Made by a program: the position numbers and the translations under genes
Part shown: in pieces, positions 1 through 36,832 of the stretch
How the letters are laid out: every line of letters begins with the position of its first letter
Position numbering within the stretch: the stretch's first letter is position 1
DNA from: Arthrobacter sp. Soil782
GTDB lineage: Bacteria > Actinomycetota > Actinomycetes > Actinomycetales > Micrococcaceae
Length of the DNA stretch: 64,000 nt
Direction: 5' to 3'
Assembly: GCF_001428435.1 (NCBI RefSeq)
Contig: NZ_LMSO01000009.1
Coordinates: 456,389 to 520,388, forward strand
The notes under the pieces: generated by a model
Database searches by the model: none
What the model saw: only the letters and a program-made list of their open reading frames with translations
What the model was told of the DNA's origin: nothing

Positions 1-172
1 GACACCCGGCCTGACGGTTTCCGTCACCGGCACCGTGATGGAGTCCTTCGACCTGCCGACCGTTGAGGAAGAAACCGGCCTTGACCTCGACGACGAAGTA
101 TTCGTTGACTTCGACGGCGAGAACTACGTCGTCGCCGAGACAGTCGACACCTCCGTGGACGCCGACAGCTAA
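1..172 (+). CDS. Small lipoprotein, OB-fold-like paralogue 1 (C-terminal end only)
   Basis: Only the last 56 codons are in the window; the reading frame is open from base 2 to the TAA at 170-172. The visible part, a beta-rich stretch with VTGTVMESFDLPTVE followed by an acidic Asp/Glu-rich segment, matches almost residue for residue the end of the complete lipoprotein at 34503-35003, and more distantly the proteins at 301 and 822. The missing N-terminus presumably carried a lipobox as in those paralogues. Function unknown; the shared core resembles a small bacterial OB-fold exported domain, which is inference from the strand pattern. Confidence 0.8.
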   Translation, partial: TPGLTVSVTGTVMESFDLPTVEEETGLDLDDEVFVDFDGENYVVAETVDTSVDADS

Positions 173-181
173 CCACATCAC

Positions 182-216
182 CCGGCCGGCCAGCTGCACT
201 TCTGCTGACCGGCCGG
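182..216 (+). repeat. Hairpin behind lipoprotein 1
   Basis: CCGGCCGG at 182-189 pairs with CCGGCCGG at 209-216, and CAGC/GCTG extend the stem inside one mismatch, leaving a 9-nt loop. No T-run follows it directly. Together with the next hairpin it forms a double structure between the first and second lipoprotein genes. Confidence 0.5.
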
Positions 217-225
217 CAACGAATT

Positions 226-265
226 GTCAGGTGGTCCGGCCCCGGGGGTGGGCCACCTGACTTTT
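226..265 (+). terminator. Intrinsic terminator or attenuator between lipoprotein genes 1 and 2
   Basis: GTCAGGTGG (226-234) and CCACCTGAC (253-261) form a perfect 9-bp stem with a GC-rich interior that can pair further, followed at once by TTTT (262-265). This is a good rho-independent terminator. The next gene starts only 36 nt later in the same direction, so the site may attenuate rather than end transcription, or a promoter may lie inside the structure. Confidence 0.7.
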
Positions 266-300
266 CTCCACCTCTACTCTCGGAAGGAGGAAGACAGGTC

Positions 301-747
301 ATGAGAACACCGATGAAACGGATCTGCCTCAAGAAGGTGATCGCGCTGTCGATAGCGACTGCTGCCGGTACAGGTCTATCCGGGTGTGCACTCGAGCCGG
401 AGCCGTATGACGGGGACTTCGACCCGAACTTCTACGATTCGATCGAAACTTATGCAGGTGAGGAAGTGAGCCTTTCCGCGGAGGTGCTCGATGTCCTCTC
501 CCCCACTTCCTTCACGATCATCAGCGGGGATGATCCCACTGCGAATCCGCTGCTCGTCTTGAATGAGGCCGATGCAGAAGACGTCCTACCCGGCATGCCC
601 GTCCAGGTCACCGGAGCCGTCAAGGAAGCATTCGACCCGAGCACCGCCGAAGAAGATCTAGGTGTCAACCTCGACGATGCGCTCTATGAGGACTGGATCG
701 GCGACTTCTATCTGGAAGTCACCGCCATCGACGCACCCGCCGAATAG
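301..747 (+). CDS. Small lipoprotein, OB-fold-like paralogue 2
   Basis: 148 aa. A strong AAGGAGG ribosome site at 284-290 supports the ATG at 301. The N-terminus is basic, then hydrophobic, ending in the lipobox LSGC (Cys about residue 29), so the protein should be lipid-anchored outside the membrane. The core has the pattern GEEVSLSAEV...SFTI...NPLLVL...VQVTGAV, shared with the proteins at 1-172, 822 and 34503, then an acidic tail. This strand pattern suggests a small OB-like barrel, but no catalytic residues are evident and the function is unknown. It is the second of three tandem paralogues upstream of lipid-metabolism genes. Confidence 0.85.
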   Translation: MRTPMKRICLKKVIALSIATAAGTGLSGCALEPEPYDGDFDPNFYDSIETYAGEEVSLSAEVLDVLSPTSFTIISGDDPTANPLLVLNEADAEDVLPGMPVQVTGAVKEAFDPSTAEEDLGVNLDDALYEDWIGDFYLEVTAIDAPAE

Positions 748-821
748 GGCACGGAGAAACAACCGGCCGGAACGACCGGTGAGCCGGACCCGACCTACAG
801 ATTCCACCAATGGAGGAAATG

Positions 822-1361
822 ATGGGCTCGACAACAAGAAAGACATGGGCAAAGAAGGCAGCGACGCTTGCGGTACTGCCAGCTGCGGTGCTTGGAGTGA
901 CCGGCTGCGGAGAGCAGAGCGTCTACGAAGCCGGGGTGGATCTTGAGGATCCGGACGCGGGTTTCATTGCCGGTGACGAGGAGTCCGACAACTCCCTCGA
1001 TTCCGGACCCTACGACGAAGTGTATGACCAGAGTTTCTGGGACGAGCTGACAATCTACTTCGGCGAGGAAGTGACACTGTCCGCGCAAGTCAAGGAACCA
1101 CTCGACCCGCGGGCGTTCACCATCGCGGGAATGGATGACACCACGGTGAACCCGCTGCTGGTGATTCATGAAGGGGAGGTTGAGCAACTGGAGCCAGGCC
1201 AGGCGCTGATCATCAACGGCACGGTCCATGAGTACCTGGACATCGAGATGGTCGAGGAAGAACTGGGCGTGGACCTGGACAACACGGTGTATGAGCAGTG
1301 GGAGAACGATCCCTATCTCCTGGCCACCTCTGTGAAGGCCGACGCCGCGTCAGCGCCCTGA
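822..1361 (+). CDS. Small lipoprotein, OB-fold-like paralogue 3
   Basis: 179 aa from ATG 822; the in-frame ATG at 819 is equally possible, and ATG 810 is unlikely because the ribosome site GGAGGAA (812-818) lies after it. Signal sequence with lipobox VTGC (Cys about residue 29), then an Asp/Glu-rich linker and the family core GEEVTLSAQV...AFTIAG-DDTT-NPLLV...LIINGTV. Lipid-anchored exported protein of unknown role. The next gene, a PLD enzyme, begins 2 nt after its TGA, so the two are probably translationally coupled; this ties the lipoprotein family to membrane-lipid enzymes. Confidence 0.85.
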   Translation: MGSTTRKTWAKKAATLAVLPAAVLGVTGCGEQSVYEAGVDLEDPDAGFIAGDEESDNSLDSGPYDEVYDQSFWDELTIYFGEEVTLSAQVKEPLDPRAFTIAGMDDTTVNPLLVIHEGEVEQLEPGQALIINGTVHEYLDIEMVEEELGVDLDNTVYEQWENDPYLLATSVKADAASAP

Positions 1362-1363
1362 GC

Positions 1364-2890
1364 GTGGACTTCCTCTCATGGTGGGGCTCCCCCGCCGGCC
1401 AGACACTGACATGGCTTGTCGTGGTGGACTTCGTAATCCGCGTCGTCGCCCTGGGCACTGTCCCCCACAATCGGCGCCCTTCCTCTGCCCTTGCCTGGCT
1501 CGCCCTGATCTTCTTTTTCCCGATCGCCGGTCTGGTGATCTTCCTGCTTTTTGGCAGGCTCCGGCTGCGTGGCAGCCGTGCAGCCTTCGAGCACCGCCTG
1601 GCCGATGAGTTACGGCGGAACGATGATCATCCTGCCCGGAAGGAGGCGGAACCCGATGTGCGGCTCGCACGGATCCCACCGGCGGTCTCTGCTGCGGTCA
1701 CGCTCAACCGGAATAACGGCGCGACCCCGCTGACGGCAGGCAACGAGCTGACCCTGCACACCGCCTACGACGAGAGTCTTGAGGCGATGACGCGGTGCGT
1801 GAAGCAGGCGGTGTCCTTTGTTCATGTGCAGTTCTACATCGTCGCCGCCGATTCCACGACCGACTGTTTTTTTGCCGCTCTGGTAGAAGCACATGCCCGA
1901 GGCGTACAGGTGCGCGTTCTGCTCGACCACCTGGGCAGCAAAGGTTTTCCTGGTTACCGGGCAGCCACGTCGCGGCTGGATGCCGCTGGGATCAGCTGGC
2001 GGAAGATGCTACCCGTTGCACCGCCGCGCTTCCAATACCAGCGCCCGGACCTAAGGAATCACCGGAAGATCGTGGTCGTGGACAACCGGGTGGGTTTCAC
2101 CGGTTCACAGAACATCATCGATGCGAGCTACAACAAGAAGCGGAACCGGCGAAAGAACTTCGAGTGGATCGACCTGATGGTCGAGGTCGAAGGCCCGACT
2201 GTTCCCCAGTTGAATACCGTTTTCCTCGCGGACTGGTCAGCGGAAACGCATGAGACAGAAACGCGCGAGGATATCGAAGTTCAGGCGGCAGCCCCATCGA
2301 CAGGACCCGTCAGGAACGCGCTGGGCTCCCAACTCCTGCCCAGTTACAGCCAACTGATTCCCAGCGGTCCGGGACTGGGTAACTCGAATAATCTACGTCT
2401 GTTCAATCACCTCATCTACGGGGCAGAGCAGCGCGTGGTCATCTGCAGCCCTTACCTGGTTCCGGACGAGTCGCTACTGATTGCGTTGACATCGGCTGCT
2501 CAGCGCGGAATTGACGTGGATGTGCACCTGGGTGCTACCTCTGATCATGTACTGACCCATCACGCACAGCGTTCCTACTACGAAGAACTCCTGCGGGCGG
2601 GGGTCAACATTCACCTCTATCGACAGCCGTTTGTGCTTCATTCCAAGTTCGTCATCATTGACAGTTACACCTCCGTCATCGCCTCCTCGAACATGGACGT
2701 ACGTTCCTTCGAGCTCAATCAGGAGATCAGCCTTCTGGTGCTGGACCGGCGCATTGTGGGCGAACTGGGTGAACTGGCCGCGCGCTACGCCGGTGAAAGC
2801 AGCACACTGGACCTATCCTCCTGGCGCGAGCGTCCAGCGCACCAGAAGTTTCTCGACAACGCATGCCGGCTCACGGCAAACCTGCAATAA
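1364..2890 (+). CDS. Cardiolipin synthase-like phospholipase D protein
   Basis: 508 aa from GTG 1364, placed 2 nt after the preceding stop; no clear ribosome site, so re-initiation is likely. Two N-terminal membrane helices precede two PLD domains, each with an HKD motif: HRKIVVVD with His233 and HSKFVIID with His426. This is the full architecture of bacterial cardiolipin synthases, which condense phosphatidylglycerol (ClsA type) or use CDP-diacylglycerol at the inner membrane. Context with a PAP2 phosphatase and small lipoproteins supports a role in membrane-lipid remodelling. The exact substrate cannot be read from sequence. A second, shorter PLD protein lies at 42129. Confidence 0.85.
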   Translation: MDFLSWWGSPAGQTLTWLVVVDFVIRVVALGTVPHNRRPSSALAWLALIFFFPIAGLVIFLLFGRLRLRGSRAAFEHRLADELRRNDDHPARKEAEPDVRLARIPPAVSAAVTLNRNNGATPLTAGNELTLHTAYDESLEAMTRCVKQAVSFVHVQFYIVAADSTTDCFFAALVEAHARGVQVRVLLDHLGSKGFPGYRAATSRLDAAGISWRKMLPVAPPRFQYQRPDLRNHRKIVVVDNRVGFTGSQNIIDASYNKKRNRRKNFEWIDLMVEVEGPTVPQLNTVFLADWSAETHETETREDIEVQAAAPSTGPVRNALGSQLLPSYSQLIPSGPGLGNSNNLRLFNHLIYGAEQRVVICSPYLVPDESLLIALTSAAQRGIDVDVHLGATSDHVLTHHAQRSYYEELLRAGVNIHLYRQPFVLHSKFVIIDSYTSVIASSNMDVRSFELNQEISLLVLDRRIVGELGELAARYAGESSTLDLSSWRERPAHQKFLDNACRLTANLQ

Positions 2891-2913
2891 GACCGAAAAG
2901 AAAGGCGCATCAA

Positions 2914-3516
2914 GTGCATACTCGCAAGCACAACAACGACGCCCACGTCCGAGGCCGACTCATCGGTGATGCGATCAGGGTCGCCGCAGTCATCAGCATC
3001 GGGATGGCCGTGTTGTGGTACGGAATTCCGGAAATTCTCGGCTTCACCGTCGTTGCGCTGGGGCTGATTGGCATACGGGTCGCCCACCTCGCCGGGCCCT
3101 TCGACGCGGCATTCGGCGCTACCATTCTCCTGGCTACATGGAGCGGCGTAGCGGGTCTCTACGAGGCGATCACCTGGTGGGACATTATGGTGCACTTCGT
3201 CACGGCCGGTTCTTCGGCAGCAGTGCTGTACCTGGTGCTTGCCAGCACCGAGGTCACCCCGGGCAGCCCTGTCAGCAAAGCCCTGCCGTCACGTTCGATC
3301 GTGGTGCTGACGTTCGCGTTCGGTATAACTGTGGCGGTGCTCTGGGAATTCGCGGAATGGGCAGGCAACGCGTTCATCTCCAAGGGTATCCACGTCGGCT
3401 ACGTCGACACCCTCCTCGATATCGCCGTGGGCGGGGTGGGTGCGATCATCGCCGGGATACTCCTTTCGTTATGGAAAGACCAGACCTCAGCCCTCCAGAG
3501 CTCAGCACGACAATGA
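2914..3516 (+). CDS. YjdF/DUF2238-like integral membrane protein
   Basis: 200 aa from GTG 2914, with a GAAAGG site about 9 nt upstream; a longer ATG start at 2863 would overlap the PLD gene. Five or six hydrophobic segments are visible. The segments WEFAEW and GYVDTLLDIAVGGVGAI resemble the conserved Trp-Glu-x-x-Glu and Tyr-x-Asp-Thr-x-x-Asp signatures of the YjdF/DUF2238 family, whose function is not established. It ends in an ATGA overlap with the next gene, so it is an integral part of the lipid/envelope operon. Confidence 0.7.
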   Translation: MHTRKHNNDAHVRGRLIGDAIRVAAVISIGMAVLWYGIPEILGFTVVALGLIGIRVAHLAGPFDAAFGATILLATWSGVAGLYEAITWWDIMVHFVTAGSSAAVLYLVLASTEVTPGSPVSKALPSRSIVVLTFAFGITVAVLWEFAEWAGNAFISKGIHVGYVDTLLDIAVGGVGAIIAGILLSLWKDQTSALQSSARQ

Positions 3517-4589
3517 GCGCCCACCAGCCCACGGGGAGGAACGTCTGGAGCACGGCCCTCGGTCACGCCGCCGTCAAACTGCACCTGGTGATCTTCGGGA
3601 CCTTCGCAGTGGTCATGGTCTGCATTGGGCTCAGCGCGGTGAAACTGGTCCTCATCCCAATACTGATCGCCTTGCTACTCACCGCCGCGATCAGTCCTCT
3701 CGTGCACTTCCTGCAACGCCGACGAATACCCAAATCTGCAGCCACTTTCATTTCCCTCCTGACCTGCCTGACAGTCTTGCTCGGCACCGGCGCCGCAGTG
3801 GCATACTCCATCTACACGCAGTGGAATGAGCTGAGAGCCAACTCAGAAGCCGGCCTGGCCAGACTTGCAGAAACTATCGCCCAAAGCCCGCTGCCCTTCT
3901 CGGAACAGCAACTACGGCAGGCCCGCGACAACGCGTTCAGGTCCATCACTGACGGCATGTCTGTCAGCGACGCGTTCGCCGCCCTCAACACGGTCGCAAC
4001 GTTCCTGACCGCCTTGCTTCTGATGATCGTGGTCCTGTTTTTCTTCCTCAAGGACGGCCAGTCCATGTGGGCATTCCTCATCCGCCCCCTGAAGGGTGAC
4101 CGCTCAGCCAGGGCTGCGCGTGCCGGACGGGAGGCTGTGGAAACCATGGGCGCCTATGTCCGCGGCATCTCGATCATCGCCTTCATCGACGCCGCAGGGA
4201 TCGGGCTTGCCATGGTACTGCTCGGAGTCCCCTTGGCCCTGCCGTTGACGGCGATCATCTTCCTCGGAGGATTCATCCCGGTCATCGGCGCAACCGTGAC
4301 CGGACTTCTCGCCGTTCTTGTGGCTTTCGTCACTAACGGTGCCGGTACCGCGCTCGCCCTCGCAGTCGCCGTCGTCCTTGTCCAGCAACTGGAAGGTAAC
4401 CTCCTGCAACCAGTCATTATGGGCAAGAGCGTCAAACTTCATCCGCTGGTGGTGCTGCTCGCGCTGGCCGTGGGAGCGATCCTCGCCGGCATCATCGGAG
4501 CGATCCTCGCCGTACCCGTTGCCGCCGTTATCTGGACCGTCGTCAAGTCATGGAACACCGAAAGGGACCCCACATGGCAGAAAAGTTGA
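3513..4589 (+). CDS. AI-2E family transporter (TqsA/PerM-like)
   Basis: 358 aa. ATG 3513 overlaps the previous TGA as ATGA, a typical coupled start. Seven or eight membrane segments with the family layout: an N-terminal helix pair, an extracytoplasmic segment about residues 95-150, then the conserved C-terminal block GGFIPVIGA...LEGNLLQPVIMGKSVKLHPL. Members export small molecules (TqsA, AI-2) or act as Na+/H+ antiporters in halophilic and actinobacterial relatives; the substrate here is unknown. Envelope or osmotic function fits the operon. Confidence 0.85.
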   Translation: MSAHQPTGRNVWSTALGHAAVKLHLVIFGTFAVVMVCIGLSAVKLVLIPILIALLLTAAISPLVHFLQRRRIPKSAATFISLLTCLTVLLGTGAAVAYSIYTQWNELRANSEAGLARLAETIAQSPLPFSEQQLRQARDNAFRSITDGMSVSDAFAALNTVATFLTALLLMIVVLFFFLKDGQSMWAFLIRPLKGDRSARAARAGREAVETMGAYVRGISIIAFIDAAGIGLAMVLLGVPLALPLTAIIFLGGFIPVIGATVTGLLAVLVAFVTNGAGTALALAVAVVLVQQLEGNLLQPVIMGKSVKLHPLVVLLALAVGAILAGIIGAILAVPVAAVIWTVVKSWNTERDPTWQKS

Positions 4590-5977
4590 GCACCGGGTTG
4601 GGACGGTTTTTCCTGCACACCGTACTGAGCCTCGTAGGGCTGATCGGGCTTGGTCTGGCGTTTGAGGCACTTGCGCCGCACACGGGAACGAGCGGTTCAA
4701 CCGGTAGCGGATTCCTGGTAGTGCTCGGCGGCGCTGTTAATTTCGTTGCTGAGATCGCTGCCCAGACCGGATGGCTGATCCTGCCTGTAGTAGTTGTGTG
4801 CTTGCTGATCCGCCGTCTCTACCCGTTGGCGGTTTATCTGGGCGTTGTGACGGCAGGTGCGGCGATTCTGGTCAGCGCAGGAATTCTCTTGACGAACGCC
4901 CTCGCCGTGTCCAAGGGCGGAAGTACCTTGTTCTCGGTTGGATCCGTTCACCTGGTTGTGACGTGCGGGGCGCTGCTACTGGTGTTCCTGCCGGTAATCC
5001 CAGCCCGGGGCAGAACCTGGACGATCATCGGAATCGTGGTGGCGGCGGCTGCCGTGGAAGCTATCCGAGCCATCACAGATGCGGTGTCCCTGTGGGCGGT
5101 TCTCGGTGGCTGGCTGATCGGCCTGACCTGGCTGTGGGTGAGCGCATGGGCCTTCCGACGCTGGCGCAGGCGGGACGGGCCATGGCCGGTTCTTCATTCC
5201 GGTTTGCCGGTTGAGGACCGGCGCGCGTTAGTGCCGGTTCCAGTTCGGGAACCGCTCCTGCCTGGCGGGGGTCGCAGCGTCCTCATACTTTGCGGTACAT
5301 GGCTGCTGCTCGCGTGCGCGGTCATCGGGTTGGGACTGCTCATTACAGGGGTGCTTTCTCCTGTCCGCTCCTTCGACCAGGCGGTGGTGGAGTGGTTCGC
5401 CGAGAATCGCACCGACACGTGGAATGCTCTTGCCACCATGGCCGGATCGTTCGGAACGACCGGGGGAATCATTGGAGCGCTGATTGTTACCGGGGCAATT
5501 TTCTCCGCAGCCACCCGGCGAGGCGCTCCAACGATCTTCCTGATCACTGCCGTGGTGGGAGAAACCGCCCTGTATCTGATCACCGGGATGATCGTGGGAC
5601 GACCCAGACCTGACGTTGACCACCTCTCCGAAGGAGTTCCACCCACCTCCTCATTCCCGTCCGGGCACGTTGCCGCGGCAGTTGTGTTTTACGGCGGGTT
5701 GGCTCTGTTGCTGCGGGTCTGGACCCGGTCCCGCCTGCGCGACCTCGGGCTGATCCTCGCGCCGCTCATCGTGCTCGGAGTGTTGCTGTCGCGGCTGTAC
5801 TGGGGCGTGCACTACCCCTCCGACACGATCGTTAGCCTGCTCTTCGCCACCGTCTGGGTTTGGGCTTGCTGGCGCTGCTTCGAACCGGCGCGCGGTGCAT
5901 CGCGTGAAGAGTCCCAACCTGCACCCGACACACTGCGGAATCATTCACAGCCAACCAGTCTCCAAGACCAGAAATGA
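4574..5977 (+). CDS. PAP2-superfamily phosphatase with a second, degenerate N-terminal PAP2-like half
   Basis: 467 aa from ATG 4574 (site GAAAGGGA just upstream; ATG 4550 is the alternative). The C-terminal half has the phosphatase motifs GRPRP, PSGH and SR-x5-H-x3-D (SRLYWGVHYPSD), so it should hydrolyse lipid phosphates or pyrophosphates such as PGP or undecaprenyl-PP at the outer membrane face. The lysine normally seven residues before the first RP is absent. The N-terminal half has about five helices and ends in WAVLGGWLIGLTWL, which looks like the tail of a PAP2 domain that lost its His and Asp. Coupled to genes on both sides. Confidence 0.8.
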   Translation: MAEKLSTGLGRFFLHTVLSLVGLIGLGLAFEALAPHTGTSGSTGSGFLVVLGGAVNFVAEIAAQTGWLILPVVVVCLLIRRLYPLAVYLGVVTAGAAILVSAGILLTNALAVSKGGSTLFSVGSVHLVVTCGALLLVFLPVIPARGRTWTIIGIVVAAAAVEAIRAITDAVSLWAVLGGWLIGLTWLWVSAWAFRRWRRRDGPWPVLHSGLPVEDRRALVPVPVREPLLPGGGRSVLILCGTWLLLACAVIGLGLLITGVLSPVRSFDQAVVEWFAENRTDTWNALATMAGSFGTTGGIIGALIVTGAIFSAATRRGAPTIFLITAVVGETALYLITGMIVGRPRPDVDHLSEGVPPTSSFPSGHVAAAVVFYGGLALLLRVWTRSRLRDLGLILAPLIVLGVLLSRLYWGVHYPSDTIVSLLFATVWVWACWRCFEPARGASREESQPAPDTLRNHSQPTSLQDQK

Positions 5978-7008
5978 AAGGTGACGCACAAAGCGCCATG
6001 CCCACAACTTTCCTCAGTTATGCCCGCCGCTTTCTGGCTACCGCAGTGCTTGCCACCGGAGCAGCCGTGCTCGCCCGCGGTTCATACGCGCGACATCTCA
6101 GGCAGGGCACCGTTGCAGGGCCCGGCAGTACCGTCACGGTCGACGACGGAATTCAACTCCATACCGACGTTGAAGACCATGCCGACGCCCGGCTTACCAT
6201 CGTCTTCGTGCATGGCTTCGCTGCCAGTTCCCAGGAATTCCATGAGCAGCGTGCTGCCCTCCGGGGTGCAGGGCGTCTGGTGCTTTTTGATCACCGCGGG
6301 CACGGCTCCAGTGGATGGGGTCGTTACCGAAGGGCCACCATCGATCAGCTCGGTCATGACCTCGGGCAGGTCATCGATGCGCAGCCGGCCACCATCCCGA
6401 TAGTCCTCGTTTCGCACTCCATGGGCGGCATGGCCACTCTTGCGCTGGCGAAACAACGTCCGGAACTCTTTACCGAGAGAATCGCCGCCGTAGCGCTTCT
6501 GTCGACTGCAGCAGGGCGCCTCCCGGCGACCAACATGCCCCGCCAGACGGCGCAGGCGATGGTCAGGACACACCTGGCTACCGTCGCTGCCTGGGCGCTT
6601 TGGCTGACCGCACCACTCATCGACGTGATCGCGCCGTTCCGGAGACAGTGGGGGCAGCGCTGGCTGCTCCACAAACTCTTCGGCGAGCAGGGCCCGCCGG
6701 AGAAAGCGGCCGGCCTGGTGGAGGACATGTGGATCGGCACTCCCATGTCGATGGCTTCCGCGTTCTACCCCGCCTTTGTCAGCTACAACGTTCCCGCAGC
6801 ATTGGATGTTCTGGATGACATTCCGGTTCTCGTCCTGGCCGGAACGAATGATCGCGTCATTCCGTCTGAACGCAGCGAAAACCTCGCACAGCAGATCGAC
6901 TCTGCCGAGCTGGTCCTGGTGGAAGGAGCCGGCCACATGGTGAACCTCACCCATCCCGGAAAAGTGAATAAGGCTCTGCGTGAACTGGTAGACCGAGCCC
7001 AGCCCTGA
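5974..7008 (+). CDS. Alpha/beta hydrolase with N-terminal membrane anchor
   Basis: 344 aa from ATG 5974, which overlaps the previous stop as ATGA; ATG 5998 is an alternative. A hydrophobic N-terminal segment (about residues 14-32) suggests a signal anchor. The hydrolase fold is shown by FVHGFAAS (oxyanion region), DHRGHG, the nucleophile elbow SHSMGG with Ser149, the acid strand VLAGTNDRVIP and the catalytic His in GAGHMVN. Substrate unknown; as the last gene of the lipid/envelope operon it may be an esterase or lipase of membrane lipids. Confidence 0.8.
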   Translation: MKGDAQSAMPTTFLSYARRFLATAVLATGAAVLARGSYARHLRQGTVAGPGSTVTVDDGIQLHTDVEDHADARLTIVFVHGFAASSQEFHEQRAALRGAGRLVLFDHRGHGSSGWGRYRRATIDQLGHDLGQVIDAQPATIPIVLVSHSMGGMATLALAKQRPELFTERIAAVALLSTAAGRLPATNMPRQTAQAMVRTHLATVAAWALWLTAPLIDVIAPFRRQWGQRWLLHKLFGEQGPPEKAAGLVEDMWIGTPMSMASAFYPAFVSYNVPAALDVLDDIPVLVLAGTNDRVIPSERSENLAQQIDSAELVLVEGAGHMVNLTHPGKVNKALRELVDRAQP

Positions 7009-7079
7009 CGGCAGCGGTATGGTGTTCCAGACAGTCGCAGTGAGCGAGGAGCGCCGGGCGGCGCCGTCAGGACGGAACC

Positions 7080-8429
7080 GTGAGCACTTCAACCGAGCTT
7101 CCCACCGGCGACCAGGTGGTTCAGGACCTGCCATGGCGGTGGCGCGTACAGGGCAAGATCTTCCTCATCGGCGGTCTTGGGTTCATGTTCGACGCCTGGG
7201 ACGTGACGCTCAACGGGTACCTCATCCCGCTGTTGTCCGACGAATGGGGACTGACGCCGGGCCAGGCCGCCTGGGTTGGCACGTCCAACCTGATTGGAAT
7301 GGCGGTCGGGGCGTTTGCCTGGGGGTCGATCGCCGACATCATCGGACGGAAAAAAGCGTTCACCGCGACCCTGCTGATCTTCTCGCTCTTCACGGTCTTC
7401 GGAGCGCTGTCCGGTGACCTGGTCTGGTTCTGCATCTTCCGGTTCCTCGCCGGTTTCGGCCTGGGCGGCTGCATCCCCGTGGATTACGCGCTGGTCGGCG
7501 AGTTCACTCCACGGAAGCACCGCGGCCGGGTGCTCACCGCCATGGACGGGTGGTGGCCTATTGGCGCTGCGCTGTGCGGTGTGGTGTCCGCGATCCTGAT
7601 TGCCGCGTTTGGAGATTGGCGCTACCTGATGCTGGTCATGGTGCTGCCGGCACTTCTGGTCTTCTGGGTGCGCCGCTCAGTTCCGGAATCGCCGCTCTTC
7701 CTCGTGCAGCGGGGGCGCACCGGCGAGGCGAAAGCCGTCATCGACCAGCTGGTCAAGAGCACCGGTGGGGCTGTGCGCGAGTGGCGCCTACCACCGGCTG
7801 GAGACGATCCGCGCCTCACGCTCGGCGGCCTGACCGGCCAGTTCACTGCGCTCTGGCGCTTCAATTGGCGCATCACCCTCGCCGCCTGGGGTCTCTTCCT
7901 GTCGATCCTTTTGGTCTACTACGGTGCCCTCACCTGGATGCCGCAGATCCTCATCGCCTCCGGGTACCGTCAGTCAGTGGCCTTCCTGACCACGGCGGGC
8001 ATGACCGGTATCGGGTTCCTCGGTGTGGTTGCGGCCGCACTCCTGGTTGAGCGGGTGGGCAGGAAATGGATACTCGCGGTATCAGGCCCGCTATCCGCCG
8101 TCGTGCTGGTGATTCTTGCGCTCAACCTTGACCTGCCGGCTGCGGCGACCGCCTGGCTACTCGCGTTCGGTTTCACCATCCAGGTGGCGATTCCGGTCCT
8201 CTACACCTATGTATCCGAGCTGTACCCAACTGAGCTGCGGGGGTCCGGGTTCGGCTGGGCGTCAACGGTTTCGCGGGTCGGCGCAGGGTTGGTTCCGCTG
8301 ATCTTCGGATCCCTGCTGTGGCCGTACTTGGGGCTGCCGCTGACCTTTGCGGTGACGGGGCTGCTGGTCCTGCTCGCTGTGTTGTGGATGGCATTCAACG
8401 CTCCGGAAACCCGTGGAACCCGTATTTGA
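7080..8429 (+). CDS. MFS transporter, sugar/organic-acid:H+ symporter type
   Basis: 449 aa from GTG 7080 with AGGACGGA just upstream. Twelve predicted helices. The motif GSIADIIGRKKAF between helices 2 and 3, EFTPRKHRGRVLT after helix 4 and VERVGRKW after helix 8 are the standard MFS signatures of the sugar and aromatic-acid porter branch; the MFDAWD start of helix 1 recalls the aromatic-acid/nicotinate group. Substrate not predictable. It sits just upstream of a secreted amylase but probably has its own promoter, so import of starch products is only a guess. Confidence 0.8.
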   Translation: MSTSTELPTGDQVVQDLPWRWRVQGKIFLIGGLGFMFDAWDVTLNGYLIPLLSDEWGLTPGQAAWVGTSNLIGMAVGAFAWGSIADIIGRKKAFTATLLIFSLFTVFGALSGDLVWFCIFRFLAGFGLGGCIPVDYALVGEFTPRKHRGRVLTAMDGWWPIGAALCGVVSAILIAAFGDWRYLMLVMVLPALLVFWVRRSVPESPLFLVQRGRTGEAKAVIDQLVKSTGGAVREWRLPPAGDDPRLTLGGLTGQFTALWRFNWRITLAAWGLFLSILLVYYGALTWMPQILIASGYRQSVAFLTTAGMTGIGFLGVVAAALLVERVGRKWILAVSGPLSAVVLVILALNLDLPAAATAWLLAFGFTIQVAIPVLYTYVSELYPTELRGSGFGWASTVSRVGAGLVPLIFGSLLWPYLGLPLTFAVTGLLVLLAVLWMAFNAPETRGTRI

Positions 8430-8491: not shown

Positions 8492-11215
8492 ATGATTGCC
8501 CGCAACGCCACTGTTGTCGTGCTTGCATCCCTGCTCGCAGCGACCGGCACCGCCCTACCCGCGCAGGCCAAACCGGCCGGCCCCAACAGCTCAACTCCCA
8601 CAACCACTGCTGAAGCGCAGCACTCGCTGCGCGCGCCGGTGACAGATGAGAATTTCTACTTCGTCATGGCTGACCGCTTCGCGAACGGAACTACAGCGAA
8701 CGACGACGGCGGCCTCGGTCCTGATCCGATGGTGTCCGGTTTCGATCCCACGAAGAAGGGCTTTTACAACGGCGGTGACCTCAAGGGCCTGCTGGACAAG
8801 CTCGACTACATCGAGGGCCTGGGCACCACGTCCATCTGGCTGACCCCGAGCTTCAAGAACAAGGCCGTGCAGCCGGCAGACAACTCGGCCGGCTACCACG
8901 GCTACTGGATCACCGACTTCACGCAGATCGACCCGCACCTCGGATCGAATGATGATCTGAAAGCGCTCATCGACGAGGCGCATTCCCGTGGCATGAAGGT
9001 CTACTTCGACATCATCACCAACCACACCGCGGACGTCATCGGGTACAAGGACGCTACCCGGATGCCTTACGTTTCCAAGGATGAGGTGCCGTACCGAACC
9101 GCTGACGGCGTCCCGTTCGATGACCGCGATGTAGCGGGCAGCGAGGACTTCCCCGAGCTCGATGCGGAGACCTCATTCCCTTACGCACCGGTGCTCGAGG
9201 AGGGCGAGGAAACCCTCAAGGTTCCGGCCTGGCTCAACGATCCGACGCTCTACCACAACCGCGGCGACACGACCTTCGCCGGGGAGGACTCCTACTACGG
9301 CGACTTCTTCGGCCTGGATGACCTCTTCACCGAGCACCCCAGAGTAGTTGACGGCATGAAGGAGATCTACCAGACCTGGATTGCCGACTTCGGTGTGGAC
9401 GGATTTCGCATCGACACCATGAAGCACGTCGATGACGGGTTCTGGCAGGAGTTCGGCCCGGACGTTCTGAAATTCGCCCATGACCAGGGCAAGGACGAGT
9501 TCTTCATGTTCGGCGAGGTCTTCGACACCACGAAGGACTTCACCTCGCAGTACACCACCCGCAACTCCATGCAGGCCGTTTTGGACTTCCCGTTCCAGGA
9601 GGCAGCCCGCAGCTTCGCTTCCCGGGGTGCGGACGCACAGCAGCTTGAGCAGTTCTTCATCGGCGACGACTGGTACACCGACGCCGATTCCAACGCCTAC
9701 AGCCTGCCCACCTTCCTGGGCAATCACGACATGGGCCGCATCGGTGGGTTCGTGGCCGCTGACAACCCGGACGCCGGCGAGGGCGAGCTGCTTGCCCGCG
9801 ACGAACTGGCGCACGAACTGATGTACTTCTCGCGCGGTAACCCTGTCATTTACTACGGCGACGAGCAGGGCTTCACCGGCCCGGGCGGCGATCAGGATGC
9901 CCGTCAGACCCTCTTCGCGAGCCAGGTGTCTGACTACCTCGATGATGACCTTCTCGGTACCGAAGCAACCCACGCCGAGGACAACTTCAACCCGGAACAC
10001 CCGCTGTACAAGACCATCGGCTCGCTCGCAGAAGTGACCGAAGAACACCCGGCTCTGCGCAACGGAGCCCACCAGCACCGTTACGCCTCCGAGGGGGCCG
10101 GGATCTACGCCTTCTCGCGGATCGACACGGAGCGTCAGCGCGAGTACGTCGTGGCACTGAACAACAGCGAGGAAGCGCAGACCGCCGAGATCCCGACGTA
10201 CATGCCGTCCCGGACCTTCAAGTCCATCTACGGCGAGGGGGAAGACCGCGTGAAGTCAGCGCGCAACGGCACCATCACCATCACGGTGCCGCCGCTTGCC
10301 GCCGTCGTCTATGAGGCTTCCGGGCGCATTCCGGCTTCCAAGACCGCTCCGGCCGTTCGTCTCACCCAGCCGACCCCGGCAGAAGGCGACAACGGGCGCA
10401 TGCTCGTGGAGGCCGCCGTCGACGGTTCCTCCTTCTATGAGGTGTCCTTCGAAGCGCGCACGGATGGCGGCGAGTGGACTCCGATCGGTACGGATGACAA
10501 CGCGCCCTACCGCGTCTTCCATGATGTTGCCGCGCTCGATCCCGGTACACCGCTGGAGTACCGTGCGGTGGTGTTGGACAACAAGGGTCACACCGCCGGC
10601 AGCGGTGTGGTGAACGCGGAGGCGCCTGCGCCGATCGTGACGCTTCAGGCTCCTGCGGAAAACGCCTGGGTACGGGACGCCGTCAAGCTCAGCGCCGTGG
10701 CGGACCCGGAGAAGGCAACCAATGTGGTTTCCTTTGAGCGCAGTGTGAACGGCGGCGACTGGGAGCAGATCGGCACGGATAGCTCCTCACCGGCGTACAC
10801 CCTGACCGACGACATCGCCGCCCTTGATCTGCCTGACAACACGCAGCTGCAGTATCGGGCGGTGCTTGGAGAGTCAGTGAGCAACGTGCGCACGGTGATC
10901 ATCGGCGACCCGGTGGTAGTCCAGCCGAATGCGGTATCAGTGCCGGGAAGCCTCAACTCGGAAATGGGCTGCCCGGGCGATTGGGACCCAGCGTGCGACC
11001 AGGCGCAGATGACGCTTGGCGACGACGGTCTCTGGCGGCTCACGGTTGACCTTCCGGCCGGTGGTTACGAGTACAAGGTGGCCATCAACAAGAGCTGGGA
11101 TGAGAACTACGGCGTGGGCGGCGGTCCCAACGGGAGCAACCTCGCGCTGGCGCACGACGGCGGTTCGGTAACCTTCACGTACGACCACCGGACACACATC
11201 ATCACCGCGGAGTGA
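8492..11215 (+). CDS. Secreted alpha-amylase-family glycoside hydrolase (GH13) with C-terminal accessory domains
   Basis: 907 aa; site CGGAGG 5 nt before ATG 8492. A signal peptide ends at about ALPAQA (residue 29). The catalytic barrel covers about residues 45-615, with D308 (GFRIDTMKH, nucleophile), E342 (MFGEVFD, acid/base) and D413 (LGNHDM, stabiliser) and a QADN-like first conserved region near DIITNHT. Then come two related beta modules (about 625-710 and 715-805), both with the pattern SFE...GG-W--IGTD, and a terminal domain (about 815-905, MGCPGDWDPACD...YEYKVAINKSW) like the X25/pullulanase-associated modules that bind starch. Extracellular breakdown of starch or related glucans is expected. 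Confidence 0.88.
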   Translation: MIARNATVVVLASLLAATGTALPAQAKPAGPNSSTPTTTAEAQHSLRAPVTDENFYFVMADRFANGTTANDDGGLGPDPMVSGFDPTKKGFYNGGDLKGLLDKLDYIEGLGTTSIWLTPSFKNKAVQPADNSAGYHGYWITDFTQIDPHLGSNDDLKALIDEAHSRGMKVYFDIITNHTADVIGYKDATRMPYVSKDEVPYRTADGVPFDDRDVAGSEDFPELDAETSFPYAPVLEEGEETLKVPAWLNDPTLYHNRGDTTFAGEDSYYGDFFGLDDLFTEHPRVVDGMKEIYQTWIADFGVDGFRIDTMKHVDDGFWQEFGPDVLKFAHDQGKDEFFMFGEVFDTTKDFTSQYTTRNSMQAVLDFPFQEAARSFASRGADAQQLEQFFIGDDWYTDADSNAYSLPTFLGNHDMGRIGGFVAADNPDAGEGELLARDELAHELMYFSRGNPVIYYGDEQGFTGPGGDQDARQTLFASQVSDYLDDDLLGTEATHAEDNFNPEHPLYKTIGSLAEVTEEHPALRNGAHQHRYASEGAGIYAFSRIDTERQREYVVALNNSEEAQTAEIPTYMPSRTFKSIYGEGEDRVKSARNGTITITVPPLAAVVYEASGRIPASKTAPAVRLTQPTPAEGDNGRMLVEAAVDGSSFYEVSFEARTDGGEWTPIGTDDNAPYRVFHDVAALDPGTPLEYRAVVLDNKGHTAGSGVVNAEAPAPIVTLQAPAENAWVRDAVKLSAVADPEKATNVVSFERSVNGGDWEQIGTDSSSPAYTLTDDIAALDLPDNTQLQYRAVLGESVSNVRTVIIGDPVVVQPNAVSVPGSLNSEMGCPGDWDPACDQAQMTLGDDGLWRLTVDLPAGGYEYKVAINKSWDENYGVGGGPNGSNLALAHDGGSVTFTYDHRTHIITAE

Positions 11216-34392: not shown

Positions 34393-34410
34393 AACCGGTC
34401 AAGACCGGTT
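34393..34410. promoter_or_regulatory. Operator-like palindrome AACCGGTC-AA-GACCGGTT
   Basis: Two perfect 8-bp arms around an AA centre. The right arm overlaps the first bases of the TTGAAT -35 of the lipoprotein promoter, the usual place for a repressor or response-regulator site. Confidence 0.55.
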
Positions 34411-34437
34411 GAATACGTTAGCAAGCGTGCTTAGTGT
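34409..34437 (+). promoter_or_regulatory. SigA-type promoter of lipoprotein 4
   Basis: TTGAAT (34409-34414), a 17-bp spacer and TAGTGT (34432-34437). It predicts a transcript start near 34444, just at the base of the 5' hairpin. Confidence 0.6.
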
Positions 34438-34502: not shown

Positions 34503-35003
34503 ATGAACACGCGCAAGCCCATGTCACGGACCCGAACTCTGGCTCTTGCAGGAATCCTCCCGCTGGCCGCACTCGGCCTGACGGGTTGCAACGGCACATC
34601 CGGTTCGGAAGAAGGTGCCGACGTTGAGGATGTGGTGGAGGAAGACAACGAAACTGCTCCCTACAACGGCGCCCTCGATTCCGAATTCTACGATGCCTAC
34701 CAGAGCTACATCGGCGAGGAAGTAACTGTCTCCGCCGACGTCAACGAGATCGTGTCCGACACGTCCTTCACGATTGCAGGGACGGATGACACCACCGTCG
34801 AGGCGCTGCTGGTGGTTCTGGAGGAAGGCACGGTCGAAGTTGAGCCGGGCGCGGCAGTGTCGGTGACCGGAACCGTCATGGAATCCTTCGACCTGCCCAC
34901 CGTCGAGGATGACACCGGATTGGACCTCGAAGAGGACGCCTATGCCGACTACGACGGGGAAAATTACATCGTGGCCAGCGAAGTGGATGTCGAGGAGAGC
35001 TGA
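34503..35003 (+). CDS. Small lipoprotein, OB-fold-like paralogue 4
   Basis: 166 aa behind AAAAGGAG. Lipobox LTGC (Cys about residue 29), an acidic linker, then the family core GEEVTVSADV...SFTIAGTDDTTVEALLV...VSVTGTVMESFDLPTVE and an acidic end DYDGENYIVASEVD. Its C-terminal third is nearly identical to the fragment at 1-172, so these two are closest relatives, pointing to a recent duplication or dispersal. Exported lipid-anchored protein of unknown role. It has its own promoter, operator-like palindrome and 5' hairpin. Confidence 0.85.
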   Translation: MNTRKPMSRTRTLALAGILPLAALGLTGCNGTSGSEEGADVEDVVEEDNETAPYNGALDSEFYDAYQSYIGEEVTVSADVNEIVSDTSFTIAGTDDTTVEALLVVLEEGTVEVEPGAAVSVTGTVMESFDLPTVEDDTGLDLEEDAYADYDGENYIVASEVDVEES

Positions 35004-35063: not shown

Positions 35064-35651
35064 ATGGGAGACATGGCAGAGATGAGAGCAGACAAGCGCA
35101 GGTATCTGAAAGCAACCGAGCACGACGACGCCCCATCCCGGCGGCGCAGTGCCTGGCTGATCATCGCCGCGGCTGTCATTTCGGTGGTCTCGCTCGCACT
35201 GGGCGCGCTGCAGTTGCAGTCTGTGCAGCGCGCCATTGGTATCCCACTTCCGGAAATGATGGTCGGTGGGTACGACGCCGACTACGTCGAGGCAGTCCGT
35301 GACCTTCTGGACGCTGCGGTCATCGAGCGCTACCAGAGCGTGCATTACCTCTGGTTCCTGCTGTTTCCCGTAGCGTTCGCCGCGCTGATCATCCTGCTGG
35401 TCCGCCGGTTCAGCCGCTCACCGCTCCGCTGGCTCTTCTACGCCGTCGCCGTGCTCTATGCCGCTGTGCATATCGCCGAGAACCTTGTGCTCGAAGCTGC
35501 CCTCGCCTCCGTAGAAATCACATCCTCCGAAGTGGCCTTCGCGAGTTTCTTGACGACGGCGAAGTTCATACTCTTCGCCGCCGCCATCCTTGCTTTTGCC
35601 CTGTCCTTCACCCTGAACCGGACGACCAGCCGGCGGCAAACCCGCCGCTAG
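35064..35651 (+). CDS. Four-helix membrane protein, unknown function
   Basis: 195 aa from ATG 35064 (ATG 35073 with GGGAG just before it is possible). Basic N-terminal tail, one helix (about 30-50), an external loop of about 50 residues, then three helices. No recognised family; the arrangement loosely recalls small regulatory membrane proteins. It follows lipoprotein 4 by 60 bp in the same direction, so they may be co-transcribed. Its stop is 2 bp from that of the convergent HtrA gene. Confidence 0.6.
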   Translation: MGDMAEMRADKRRYLKATEHDDAPSRRRSAWLIIAAAVISVVSLALGALQLQSVQRAIGIPLPEMMVGGYDADYVEAVRDLLDAAVIERYQSVHYLWFLLFPVAFAALIILLVRRFSRSPLRWLFYAVAVLYAAVHIAENLVLEAALASVEITSSEVAFASFLTTAKFILFAAAILAFALSFTLNRTTSRRQTRR

Positions 35652-35652
35652 G

Positions 35653-36756
35653 TCAGCCGTTCTCGACGGGCCGCTCACCGAGCGTAATCTCCACCTCCGA
35701 GGTTTCGCCTTCGCGCATCAGCTCCGCTGTCACCGTCTCCCCCGGATTCAAAGAGCGCAGTGCCGCCAGGACCTGTTCCGAGCTGGCGAGCGGCTCACCG
35801 TTGAGGGACACCAGAATGTCTCCCGCTTGGATTCCGGCCTCGCCGGCCGGTCCGCCTTCTTCCACCGCCAGCACCGCAACGCCCTGTTCAACGCTGACGC
35901 CGAGCTGCTGGGCAATCTGCGGCGTGACGGTGCGCGGAGCCAGGCCGAGGAACGCGTGTTCAGCCGAACCGTCCTCGAGGAGTTCCTCCACCACTTCGAC
36001 GGCGGTGCCGGCCGGGATCGCAAACCCCAGCGAGACCGCGCCCGCCTGCGGCGGAATATAGGCTTCGCTGATTCCCACCACCTGGCCCTGACCGTTGACC
36101 AGCGCTCCCCCGGAATTGCCCGGACTGATGGCCGCGTCTGTCTGCACCAGGTCCACAAGTGACTGGCTGTTGGTTGCCGAGCCCGGAATTTCCCGATGCA
36201 ACCCGGAGATTATTCCTGCGGTTGCCGTGTTCTCAAAGCCCAACGGGCTGCCGATGACAACGGCCAGCTCTCCCACCTCCGGCAGCTCCGTCTGGAACTC
36301 GGCGGGCGGAAGTCCAGTGCGGTCAGCCTGCACAAGTGCGAGGTCAGTGACGGCATCGATGGCAACCACAGTGCCGGTGACGCGCTGTCCGTCGGCGAAG
36401 GCAACCTGCACTTCCTCCGCACCGCGCACCACGTGTTCGTTGGTGAGGATCAGCCCGTCCTCGGTGTAGATCACACCGCTGCCCAGCCCTCCGTTGTCCA
36501 GGAAAATGGTCACCACGGATGGCTGGACGTCATCGATGATTTCCGGAATGTCCGCCACCGTGGCGGCCGGCGAATCAGCGGCGTCGCCGCTTCCCCCCGC
36601 CGATTCACCCGATGTTGCACCCGCCGTTTCACCTGCCGTCCCGGATTCCGTCTCCGGTTCATCCGTGGCCGTGCACCCCGCCAGGGCAAGGGAAGCAACA
36701 ACAGCGACGGCGGCGAGGCGCTTCACTCTCGGGGGCTGATTCTGTGCATTGTTCAC
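35653..36756 (-). CDS. HtrA/DegP-type serine protease lipoprotein with PDZ domain
   Basis: 367 aa from GTG 36756, preceded by AAGGAG. Lipobox LAGC (Cys about residue 28) followed by a Thr/Gly/Ser-rich linker. The trypsin-like domain has the triad His108 (LTNEHVV), Asp138 (AVTDLALVQ) and Ser215 (SPGNSGGALV). One PDZ domain covers about residues 275-365 (GLAPRTVTPQIAQQLGV...GDILVSLNG). Periplasm-like space quality-control protease or chaperone; lipid anchoring in place of the more common membrane helix is notable. Confidence 0.9.
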   Translation of the reverse strand: MNNAQNQPPRVKRLAAVAVVASLALAGCTATDEPETESGTAGETAGATSGESAGGSGDAADSPAATVADIPEIIDDVQPSVVTIFLDNGGLGSGVIYTEDGLILTNEHVVRGAEEVQVAFADGQRVTGTVVAIDAVTDLALVQADRTGLPPAEFQTELPEVGELAVVIGSPLGFENTATAGIISGLHREIPGSATNSQSLVDLVQTDAAISPGNSGGALVNGQGQVVGISEAYIPPQAGAVSLGFAIPAGTAVEVVEELLEDGSAEHAFLGLAPRTVTPQIAQQLGVSVEQGVAVLAVEEGGPAGEAGIQAGDILVSLNGEPLASSEQVLAALRSLNPGETVTAELMREGETSEVEITLGERPVENG

Positions 36757-36832
36757 GGCAGACTCCTTGCAGTTGGCGATTTTGTCTACCTTCATTCCTA
36801 CCAACTATGGGAAGTCACTGAAAGACAAGACT

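Follow-up and report, generated by a model that had tools for sequence, protein, structure and literature searches.

Why does a series of paralogous lipoprotein genes stand directly ahead of genes for a cardiolipin synthase and other membrane-associated proteins, and do these genes act together? The question is raised by a stretch of 64,000 nt from Arthrobacter sp. Soil782 (GCF_001428435.1, contig NZ_LMSO01000009.1, 456,389–520,388, + strand), referred to here as the window. Its left end encodes lipoproteins with a predicted OB fold (paralogues D, E and F), an HKD/PLD-type cardiolipin synthase (Cls), a YjdF-like membrane protein, an AI-2E family transporter-like protein, a tandem PAP2 protein and an alpha/beta hydrolase. 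A preliminary description had suggested that the lipoproteins serve membrane-lipid remodelling, possibly within a stress module. Our preferred reading, to which we give somewhat less than an even chance, is that the genes form an accessory, stress-regulated envelope-lipid module or island. It draws on the position of the block, on the neighbours of related lipoproteins and on a dyad in the putative promoters. Genomes are given as G numbers (G000 is the Soil782 genome and C9 its contig) and loci as L numbers.

An insertion between purH and an MFS gene

In Soil782 a block of roughly 11.5 kb separates purH from a gene for an MFS transporter. purH was present in 36 of 38 congeneric genomes, and the best 30 of the 36 loci, that of Soil782 included, were compared. 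The MFS gene lies within the 1.5 kb purH flank in 25 of these 30 loci, the exceptions being Soil782 itself, G034, G031, G028 and G019; in G031 and G019 it is found about 1.6 kb from purH. In close relatives (G024, G022, G017, G003 and G021) the purH and MFS matches are about 80 to 180 bases apart. The block is an accessory insertion between genes that are adjacent in most of the congeners examined, and because the MFS gene adjoins purH in these genomes it is not part of the module. Both the MFS gene and the amylase gene beyond it belong to the conserved flank and were rejected as module members. The latter (8492–11215, between the MFS gene and purN) encodes a large secreted protein which by eye resembles alpha-amylases or pullulanases and is common to several congeners.

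The occupancy of this site varies. In G034, whose purH is 95–96% identical, it holds genes for a YjdF-like protein (65% identity), a PAP2 protein (43%) and a hydrolase (56%), without lipoprotein, Cls or AI-2E; the flanking genes are 93–99% identical to those of Soil782, unlike the cargo genes between them. The purH-side junction follows a shared stretch ending in TCTAAAA, and part of the leader on the MFS side is common to G034. In G028 the purH site is followed by about 7 kb of other sequence (L116, 9069 to 16164) with no MFS match, so the purH-side junction is variable. Both sites speak for the main rival to our reading, namely that a variable purH–MFS junction collects stress genes as hitch-hiking cargo, in which lipoproteins and lipid enzymes may share regulation and mobility and no joint biochemical step. 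We regard this as doubtful, if a serious candidate. An origin involving visible mobile machinery was rejected: no integrase or transposase was recognized by eye among the open reading frames (ORFs) of the island (no search by family was directed at such genes), and L006 contains no tRNA according to ARAGORN.

OB-fold lipoproteins and their neighbours

Seven matches to paralogue C, itself included, occur in the Soil782 genome (genes or fragments A to G). A, B and C lie directly upstream of the window, together with a PRC-barrel/DUF2382 protein and a 358-residue protein with no Pfam match at E≤0.001. Base 1 of the window (G000:C9:456389) directly follows a one-N assembly gap, so that its first feature is only the tail of lipoprotein D. 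Of the three tandem lipoproteins first described, E and F are real genes and the third is this fragment; a count of three was rejected in view of the upstream paralogues and of G. Paralogue A lacks part of its 3′ end, and over 98 nt its tail and spacer match those of C exactly (L006 7557–7654 and 11291–11388), a sign of recent copying (conversion) within the array or of its collapse during assembly. Between the DUF2382 gene and the 358-residue gene (L006, about 9130–9290), a lipoprotein start with a broken acidic tail, as judged by eye, appears to be a further, decayed paralogue.

The lipobox cysteine is invariant in an alignment of 40 members, which show a signal peptide and a lipobox, the latter called by a regular expression and not by a trained predictor. 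The AlphaFold2 (AF2) model of protein F has a mean pLDDT of 80.4: confidence is low over the first 60 residues, which comprise the signal peptide and a probably disordered acidic tether, and mostly above 90 from about residue 65, with 101 residues at 90 or more. The best VIA-align match (Z 11.0, root-mean-square deviation 2.9, 94 aligned residues) is the N-terminal domain of AsnRS, and the Foldseek and VIA-align matches include anticodon-binding, RPA, MCM and telomere proteins, the matched parts of which we take to be OB domains. The model thus supports the OB-like fold proposed earlier and, more precisely, a five-stranded OB barrel carried on an acidic, lipobox-anchored tether. Since OB domains of many functions tie in the fold search, the fold names no ligand; the lipoproteins might sense lipids.

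E, F and G fall into no Pfam, NCBIfam or PHROGs family, and a PDB sequence search with the lipoprotein returned nothing at E≤1. Over the 40 members Pfam gives weak matches only: DUF5818 in three (best E 0.0019), tRNA_anti-codon in one and Rep_fac-A_3 in one. Other exported families, BOF/YgiW and the tRNA_anti-like lipoproteins, likewise consist of a single OB barrel; neither was matched by any of the 40 members at E≤0.01, nor was either seen among the structure matches listed, and the present family may still be distantly related to them.

Carriers number 10 of 57 genomes (Soil782 included), at least 23 of 395 in the Micrococcaceae, the family of the host, and at least about 6 of 394 in its class with weak matches set aside; the class and family figures are lower bounds because nine candidates were scored per genome. 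The class survey gave matches in 42 of 394 genomes at E≤0.001, of which G000, G436, G325, G356, G437 and the weak G248 were kept. The 36 others were dropped as weak and nearly all confined to the signal-peptide end of the profile; three of them (G035, G375 and G023) match a portion of the OB region in exceptionally long ORFs. Other named carriers are, among others, Kocuria, Microcella, Kineococcus, Geodermatophilus, Modestobacter and Blastococcus, a patchy distribution in which several genera tolerate drying or radiation. In open-licence full text we found, judging by the search listings, no description of these lipoproteins, of the gene set or of the dyad in Actinobacteria, and within that literature both family and dyad look undescribed.

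Patchiness and multiple copies would also suit a role of the OB lipoproteins in protection against membrane-acting toxins of competitors, with the lipid genes as repair functions. An OB-fold protein does occur among candidate immunity proteins beside CapCone-2 toxins, according to passages of PMC12419801. No toxin was recognized, mostly by eye, among the neighbour clusters shared by at least 4 of 58 lipoprotein loci, and the dyad ties some lipoproteins to stress-type genes; we consider this role very improbable.

Are the lipid genes regular companions of the lipoproteins? In 28 family-positive genomes, 56 lipoprotein matches (fragment D, G248 and the second piece of any split match being excluded) were merged into 43 loci, one of which rests on a match in a 1086-codon frame (G697:C1:451041), and partners were counted within 10 kb. 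The counts used 110 of 111 AI-2E and 46 of 47 Cls rows, one second piece being dropped from each, and 93 of 97 PAP2 rows, second domains of tandem proteins being dropped. By a Poisson test that assumes an even gene spread, applied to related and hence non-independent genomes and to draft contigs that end near some loci, nine of 46 Cls copies fall near a lipoprotein against 0.41 expected (P 6e-10), eight of 30 YjdF-like genes against 0.25 (P 3e-10), seven of 110 AI-2E genes against 0.93 (P 5e-5) and three of 93 PAP2 genes against 0.71 (P 0.04). One of the Cls counted is a separate copy 7.8 kb from G. With the Soil782 genome removed, the counts are 7 versus 0.38 (Cls), 7 versus 0.22 (YjdF-like) and 6 versus 0.86 (AI-2E).

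The association is non-random but not obligatory: it is statistically supported for Cls, the YjdF-like protein and AI-2E, and weak for PAP2. At least one of the four partners is present at 17 of the 43 loci, and Cls, AI-2E or PAP2 at 13. The expectation that homologues would mostly keep PLD, PAP2 and AI-2E genes as neighbours therefore fails as literally worded, since none of these three occurs at 30 of the 43 loci; 26 lack the YjdF-like gene as well, as hitch-hiking would lead one to expect. Against hitch-hiking, the Cls and YjdF associations recur at other sites and in other genera, that of Cls also outside the family. Among 58 neighbourhoods, partly redundant and with clusters named mostly by eye, the recurrent neighbours include an OmpR-type regulator (12 loci), hydrolase (11), PLD/Cls (11), PAP2 (7), AI-2E (7), a calcineurin-like phosphoesterase (7) and the YjdF-like protein (6). 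PAP2, hydrolase and calcineurin-like phosphoesterase genes follow one another beside OB lipoproteins both in Arthrobacter sp. H41 (L053) and in Geodermatophilus (L018). The association is real but modular, with genes that come and go.

The promoter dyad

A near-palindrome, AAGCNNGCTT, is common to the upstream regions of A and C, within the island, and of G, outside it, in each case just ahead of the −10 position. Paralogue G is a separate gene, as first described; its proposed separate regulation is at variance with this shared dyad. The lipoprotein loci, 1.32 Mb with 102 lipoprotein genes (both figures including duplicated loci), contain 17 such sites, 13 of them no more than 350 nt ahead of an OB-lipoprotein gene (12 of 16 once the duplicated locus L052 is removed). 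Ten of the 12 are 87–117 nt before the start of the signal-peptide profile. The upstream clustering has P of about 1e-16, a value to which the three Soil782 copies contribute no independent evidence, as the dyad was chosen after they had been seen. TTG is found 16–19 nt before the −10 position at 9 of the 12 lipoprotein sites (background 4%), and TANNNT, starting from the last T of the dyad, at 8 of the 12, although the first T of this motif belongs to the dyad and cannot vary. At most of these sites the dyad appears to occupy the spacer, between −35 and −10, of a promoter of the sigma-70 type.

The lipid genes enter this picture through G034, where a one-mismatch dyad, accompanied by TTGAAT-N18-TACCGT, lies 68 nt before the YjdF–PAP2–hydrolase cassette; as a predicted promoter, this site directly links lipid genes to the promoter type. 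In six of eight genomes the exact 11-mer is commoner than its reversed control (21 versus 10 in G000).

Inspection covered the 13 G000 sites that do not precede lipoproteins, in 12 regions; from G021, 8 regions chosen by hand; and from G034, G003, G024, G019 and G009 together, 20 sites, also chosen by hand and for the most part perfect palindromes. Three of the 16 distinct G000 sites precede lipoproteins. Behind other G000 sites stand PRC/DUF2382 (L165), a YeaQ-like gene with a sub-cut-off Pfam match (L161), DUF2254 (L168), an operon whose later gene is Holin-X (L160) and DUF4383 (L164, where an Hsp20 gene lies near the dyad but not behind it). In relatives the sites precede genes for Mn-catalase (L171 by Pfam, L180 and L191 by likeness), SDR (L171 by Pfam, L192 by likeness) and DUF2254 (L177). 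Such sites also occur in G024 and G003, in which no lipoprotein was matched. The same dyad thus precedes, within one genus, PRC/DUF2382, DUF2254 and Mn-catalase genes and the Holin-X operon, which we take to be actinobacterial stress-type genes. This sharing, which the preliminary description did not report, supports its suggestion of a stress module; the spread of the dyad over unrelated gene types equally suits hitch-hiking cargo. A search of open-licence full text with four exact forms of the dyad gave nothing on Actinobacteria, as judged by title.

Several observations weigh against a stress-regulated lipid module. In A and C the −10 element is TACGTA, which does not fit TANNNT. The dyad is found at 14 of the 102 OB-lipoprotein genes only, all within the host's own bacterial family. 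No dyad precedes E, F or the lipid genes of the window, and a scan of window positions 1–7300 gave no sigma-70 match, so that the lipid genes may be outside the regulon unless they are read through from C, which would take transcription past at least one hairpin. Nine of the ten lipid-gene cassette starts tested, that of the window included, have no dyad, G034 being the exception. The 11-mer count is below control in G009 (11 versus 13) and G487 (7 versus 20), and of the other 13 G000 sites only about five stand, in our reading, before a stress-type gene. Several further sites have no evident stress gene (for example L158, L166, L167, L173, L186, L194 and L195). To these are added the 26 loci without any of the four partners and, for PAP2, the loss of significance once Soil782 is removed (2 versus 0.67, P 0.15). 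A broader claim, that an undescribed actinobacterial stress regulon marked by the spacer dyad AAGCNNGCTT drives OB lipoproteins of a new, outer-leaflet family with head-group-exchanging enzymes, an HKD Cls beside a Wok-type lipocone, as exchangeable envelope-remodelling islands in some hardy Actinobacteria, is in our judgement rather unlikely.

Two further cases were noted. In L157, L169, L178, L184 and L188 (dyad near 1200) the proposed ATG of an NAD(P)H-hydrate repair gene, identified by Pfam on L157 only, falls inside the dyad TAAGCATGCTTA. In G021 (L176, 540–1273) a dyad-like site lies just upstream of a gene resembling, by eye, a response regulator, a possible regulator candidate.

Lipid enzymes of the window and a possible mechanism

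The ORFs and all junctions from 822 on agree with the preliminary description (Table 1), and its cardiolipin synthase, AI-2E and hydrolase assignments are borne out by family matches. F is followed after 2 nt by Cls and, after a further 23 nt, by the YjdF-like gene; the latter and AI-2E share an ATGA overlap, AI-2E and PAP2 overlap by 16 nt, and PAP2 and the hydrolase again by ATGA. These overlaps argue against mere hitch-hiking. The tight coupling claimed earlier holds from 822 on; because of the hairpin between D and E, it is uncertain that C and all genes as far as the hydrolase are transcribed as one unit, and the idea of a guaranteed single transcript was rejected on account of the hairpins between lipoprotein genes. 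A terminator scan, which as a whole performed at chance level (5 found versus 5.1 in shuffles), lists 246–258 as terminator-like.

Table 1. Positions of the features discussed, in window coordinates
Feature	Position	Strand	Remarks
Lipoprotein D, 3′ fragment, 5′ part lost at the gap	1–171	+	93% identical to paralogue C residues 118–175
Strong hairpin, then TTTTC, between D and E; candidate terminator or attenuator	226–265 (about)	+	Folding energy of the D–E region −65.2 kcal/mol
OB-fold lipoprotein E (148 aa) with lipobox LSGC and a short linker	301–747	+	
OB-fold lipoprotein F, 179 aa, lipobox VTGC, OB barrel at about residues 62–179	822–1361	+	
HKD/PLD-type cardiolipin synthase (Cls), GTG start at 1364, both HKD motifs	1364–2890	+	TIGR04265
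YjdF-like membrane protein, probable remote DUF2238 (lipocone "Wok") relative	2914–3516	+	
AI-2E family transporter-like membrane protein	3513–4589	+	PF01594, 207.7 bits
Tandem PAP2 protein with an intact C-terminal phosphatase domain and a degenerate N-terminal one	4574–5977	+	PF01569, 70.2 bits
Alpha/beta hydrolase	5974–7008	+	Abhydrolase_1, 91.8 bits
MFS transporter, right-hand flank	7080–8429	+	
Promoter-like site of G, TTGAAT-N17-TAGTGT, dyad AAGCGTGCTT (34423–34432) in spacer	34409–34437	+	
OB-fold lipoprotein G, separate paralogue	34503–35003	+	

By family score and motifs, Cls is assigned to the HKD-type cardiolipin synthases: it scores 308.8 bits against a TIGR04265 equivalog cut-off of 290, carries two HxKxxxxD motifs (HRKIVVVD and HSKFVIID) and has an N-terminal membrane segment corresponding to a PLDc_N match above cut-off. 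It differs from ordinary members of TIGR04265 in being an extra copy within an accessory island; a second copy, at C9:498706, is below the TIGR04265 cut-off. The AI-2E match (PF01594) is also above cut-off and points to family membership only.

The PAP2 protein shows the RP, PSGH and SRxxxxxHxxxD motifs in its C-terminal domain (Pfam residues 330–445, ORF at window 4550–5974). Its earlier description as a double PAP2 protein stands by homology, as two Pfam PAP2 stretches are found in its Geodermatophilus relative (L018); by eye, the N-terminal half of the window protein has none of the RP, PSGH and H–D motifs, which are kept in L018, L016 and L078 and lost in the window, G034 and Arthrobacter sp. 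H41 proteins. Its best weak match is phosphatidylglycerophosphatase B (E 1e-6), followed by two undecaprenyl-diphosphatase models (E 4e-6 and 5e-5), all below cut-offs. The latter two would suit a cell-wall module: PAP2 would then dephosphorylate undecaprenyl diphosphate, and wall glycans or lipid-linked precursors would be the ligands of the OB lipoproteins. OB domains in other proteins bind oligosaccharides, and a cluster resembling, by eye, class A penicillin-binding proteins occurs in 4 of the 58 neighbourhoods (L014, L024, L064 and L067), a point against a purely lipid reading. We nevertheless judge a cell-wall role unlikely, more so than hitch-hiking, given that best weak match and given that the two most enriched of the four partners are Cls and the YjdF-like protein.

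The YjdF-like protein has no Pfam match at E≤1; of seven homologues, three have a weak DUF2238 match (best E 0.0037). The D..xH, E..E(W) and DT..D positions are invariant in the seven, and an hhalign comparison with E. coli YjdF aligns D..H, E..EW and DT..D (E 0.0023, but probability only 12.7%). We read these conserved positions as a putative active site. An AF2 model built from two sequences has a pLDDT of 46. In the passages of PMC12419801 (eLife 2025) that treat the family, DUF2238 is in part placed in the "Wok" lipocones, proposed to be cardiolipin-synthase-like. We consider it likely that the YjdF-like protein is a member. These passages describe Wok neighbourhoods in which a membrane protein of DUF2238 type, with lipid head groups as its proposed substrates, stands beside phosphoesterases or an HKD Cls, and report that, in one neighbourhood type, Wok and HKD Cls are mutually exclusive beside a synaptojanin-like phosphatase. 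Here, in contrast, a Wok-like gene and an HKD Cls are neighbours, with AI-2E, PAP2 and OB lipoproteins, a company absent from the Wok descriptions in those passages. The Skillet-1 operons of the same paper also couple a lipocone gene to an exported protein with a lipobox-like motif and perhaps an OB fold (PMC12419801); in the part of the paper concerned their lipobox ends in GS, whereas the present family has a classic Cys lipobox and its membrane partner resembles DUF2238, not Skillet.

If the genes do form an envelope-lipid module, a dimeric regulator bound to the dyad could gate the promoters under drying, osmotic, oxidative or similar stress. The lipoproteins would be exported and lipid-anchored by Lgt/Lsp, their acidic tether holding the OB domain off the outer leaflet, where it might bind a phospholipid head group, a lipid carrier or a wall polymer. 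Cls and the DUF2238-like protein may exchange head groups towards cardiolipin-type lipids, PAP2 may dephosphorylate phosphatidylglycerol phosphate or C55-PP, and the hydrolase may trim acyl lipids. With hairpins between the lipoprotein genes, more lipoprotein than enzyme could be made. Such a module would offer a handle on membrane change under stress in some Actinobacteria and a promoter element with which to find its regulator; it would add a family of surface lipoproteins that appears to be undescribed and has a solvable fold and, by placing a proposed lipocone "cardiolipin synthase" beside an HKD one, make the lipocone proposal directly testable.

On the 3′ side of paralogue G, a 195-aa membrane protein (35064–35651) is followed by a convergent gene for a protein resembling, by eye, an HtrA protease (35653–36804); both have relatives next to the lipoprotein in L046 and L047.

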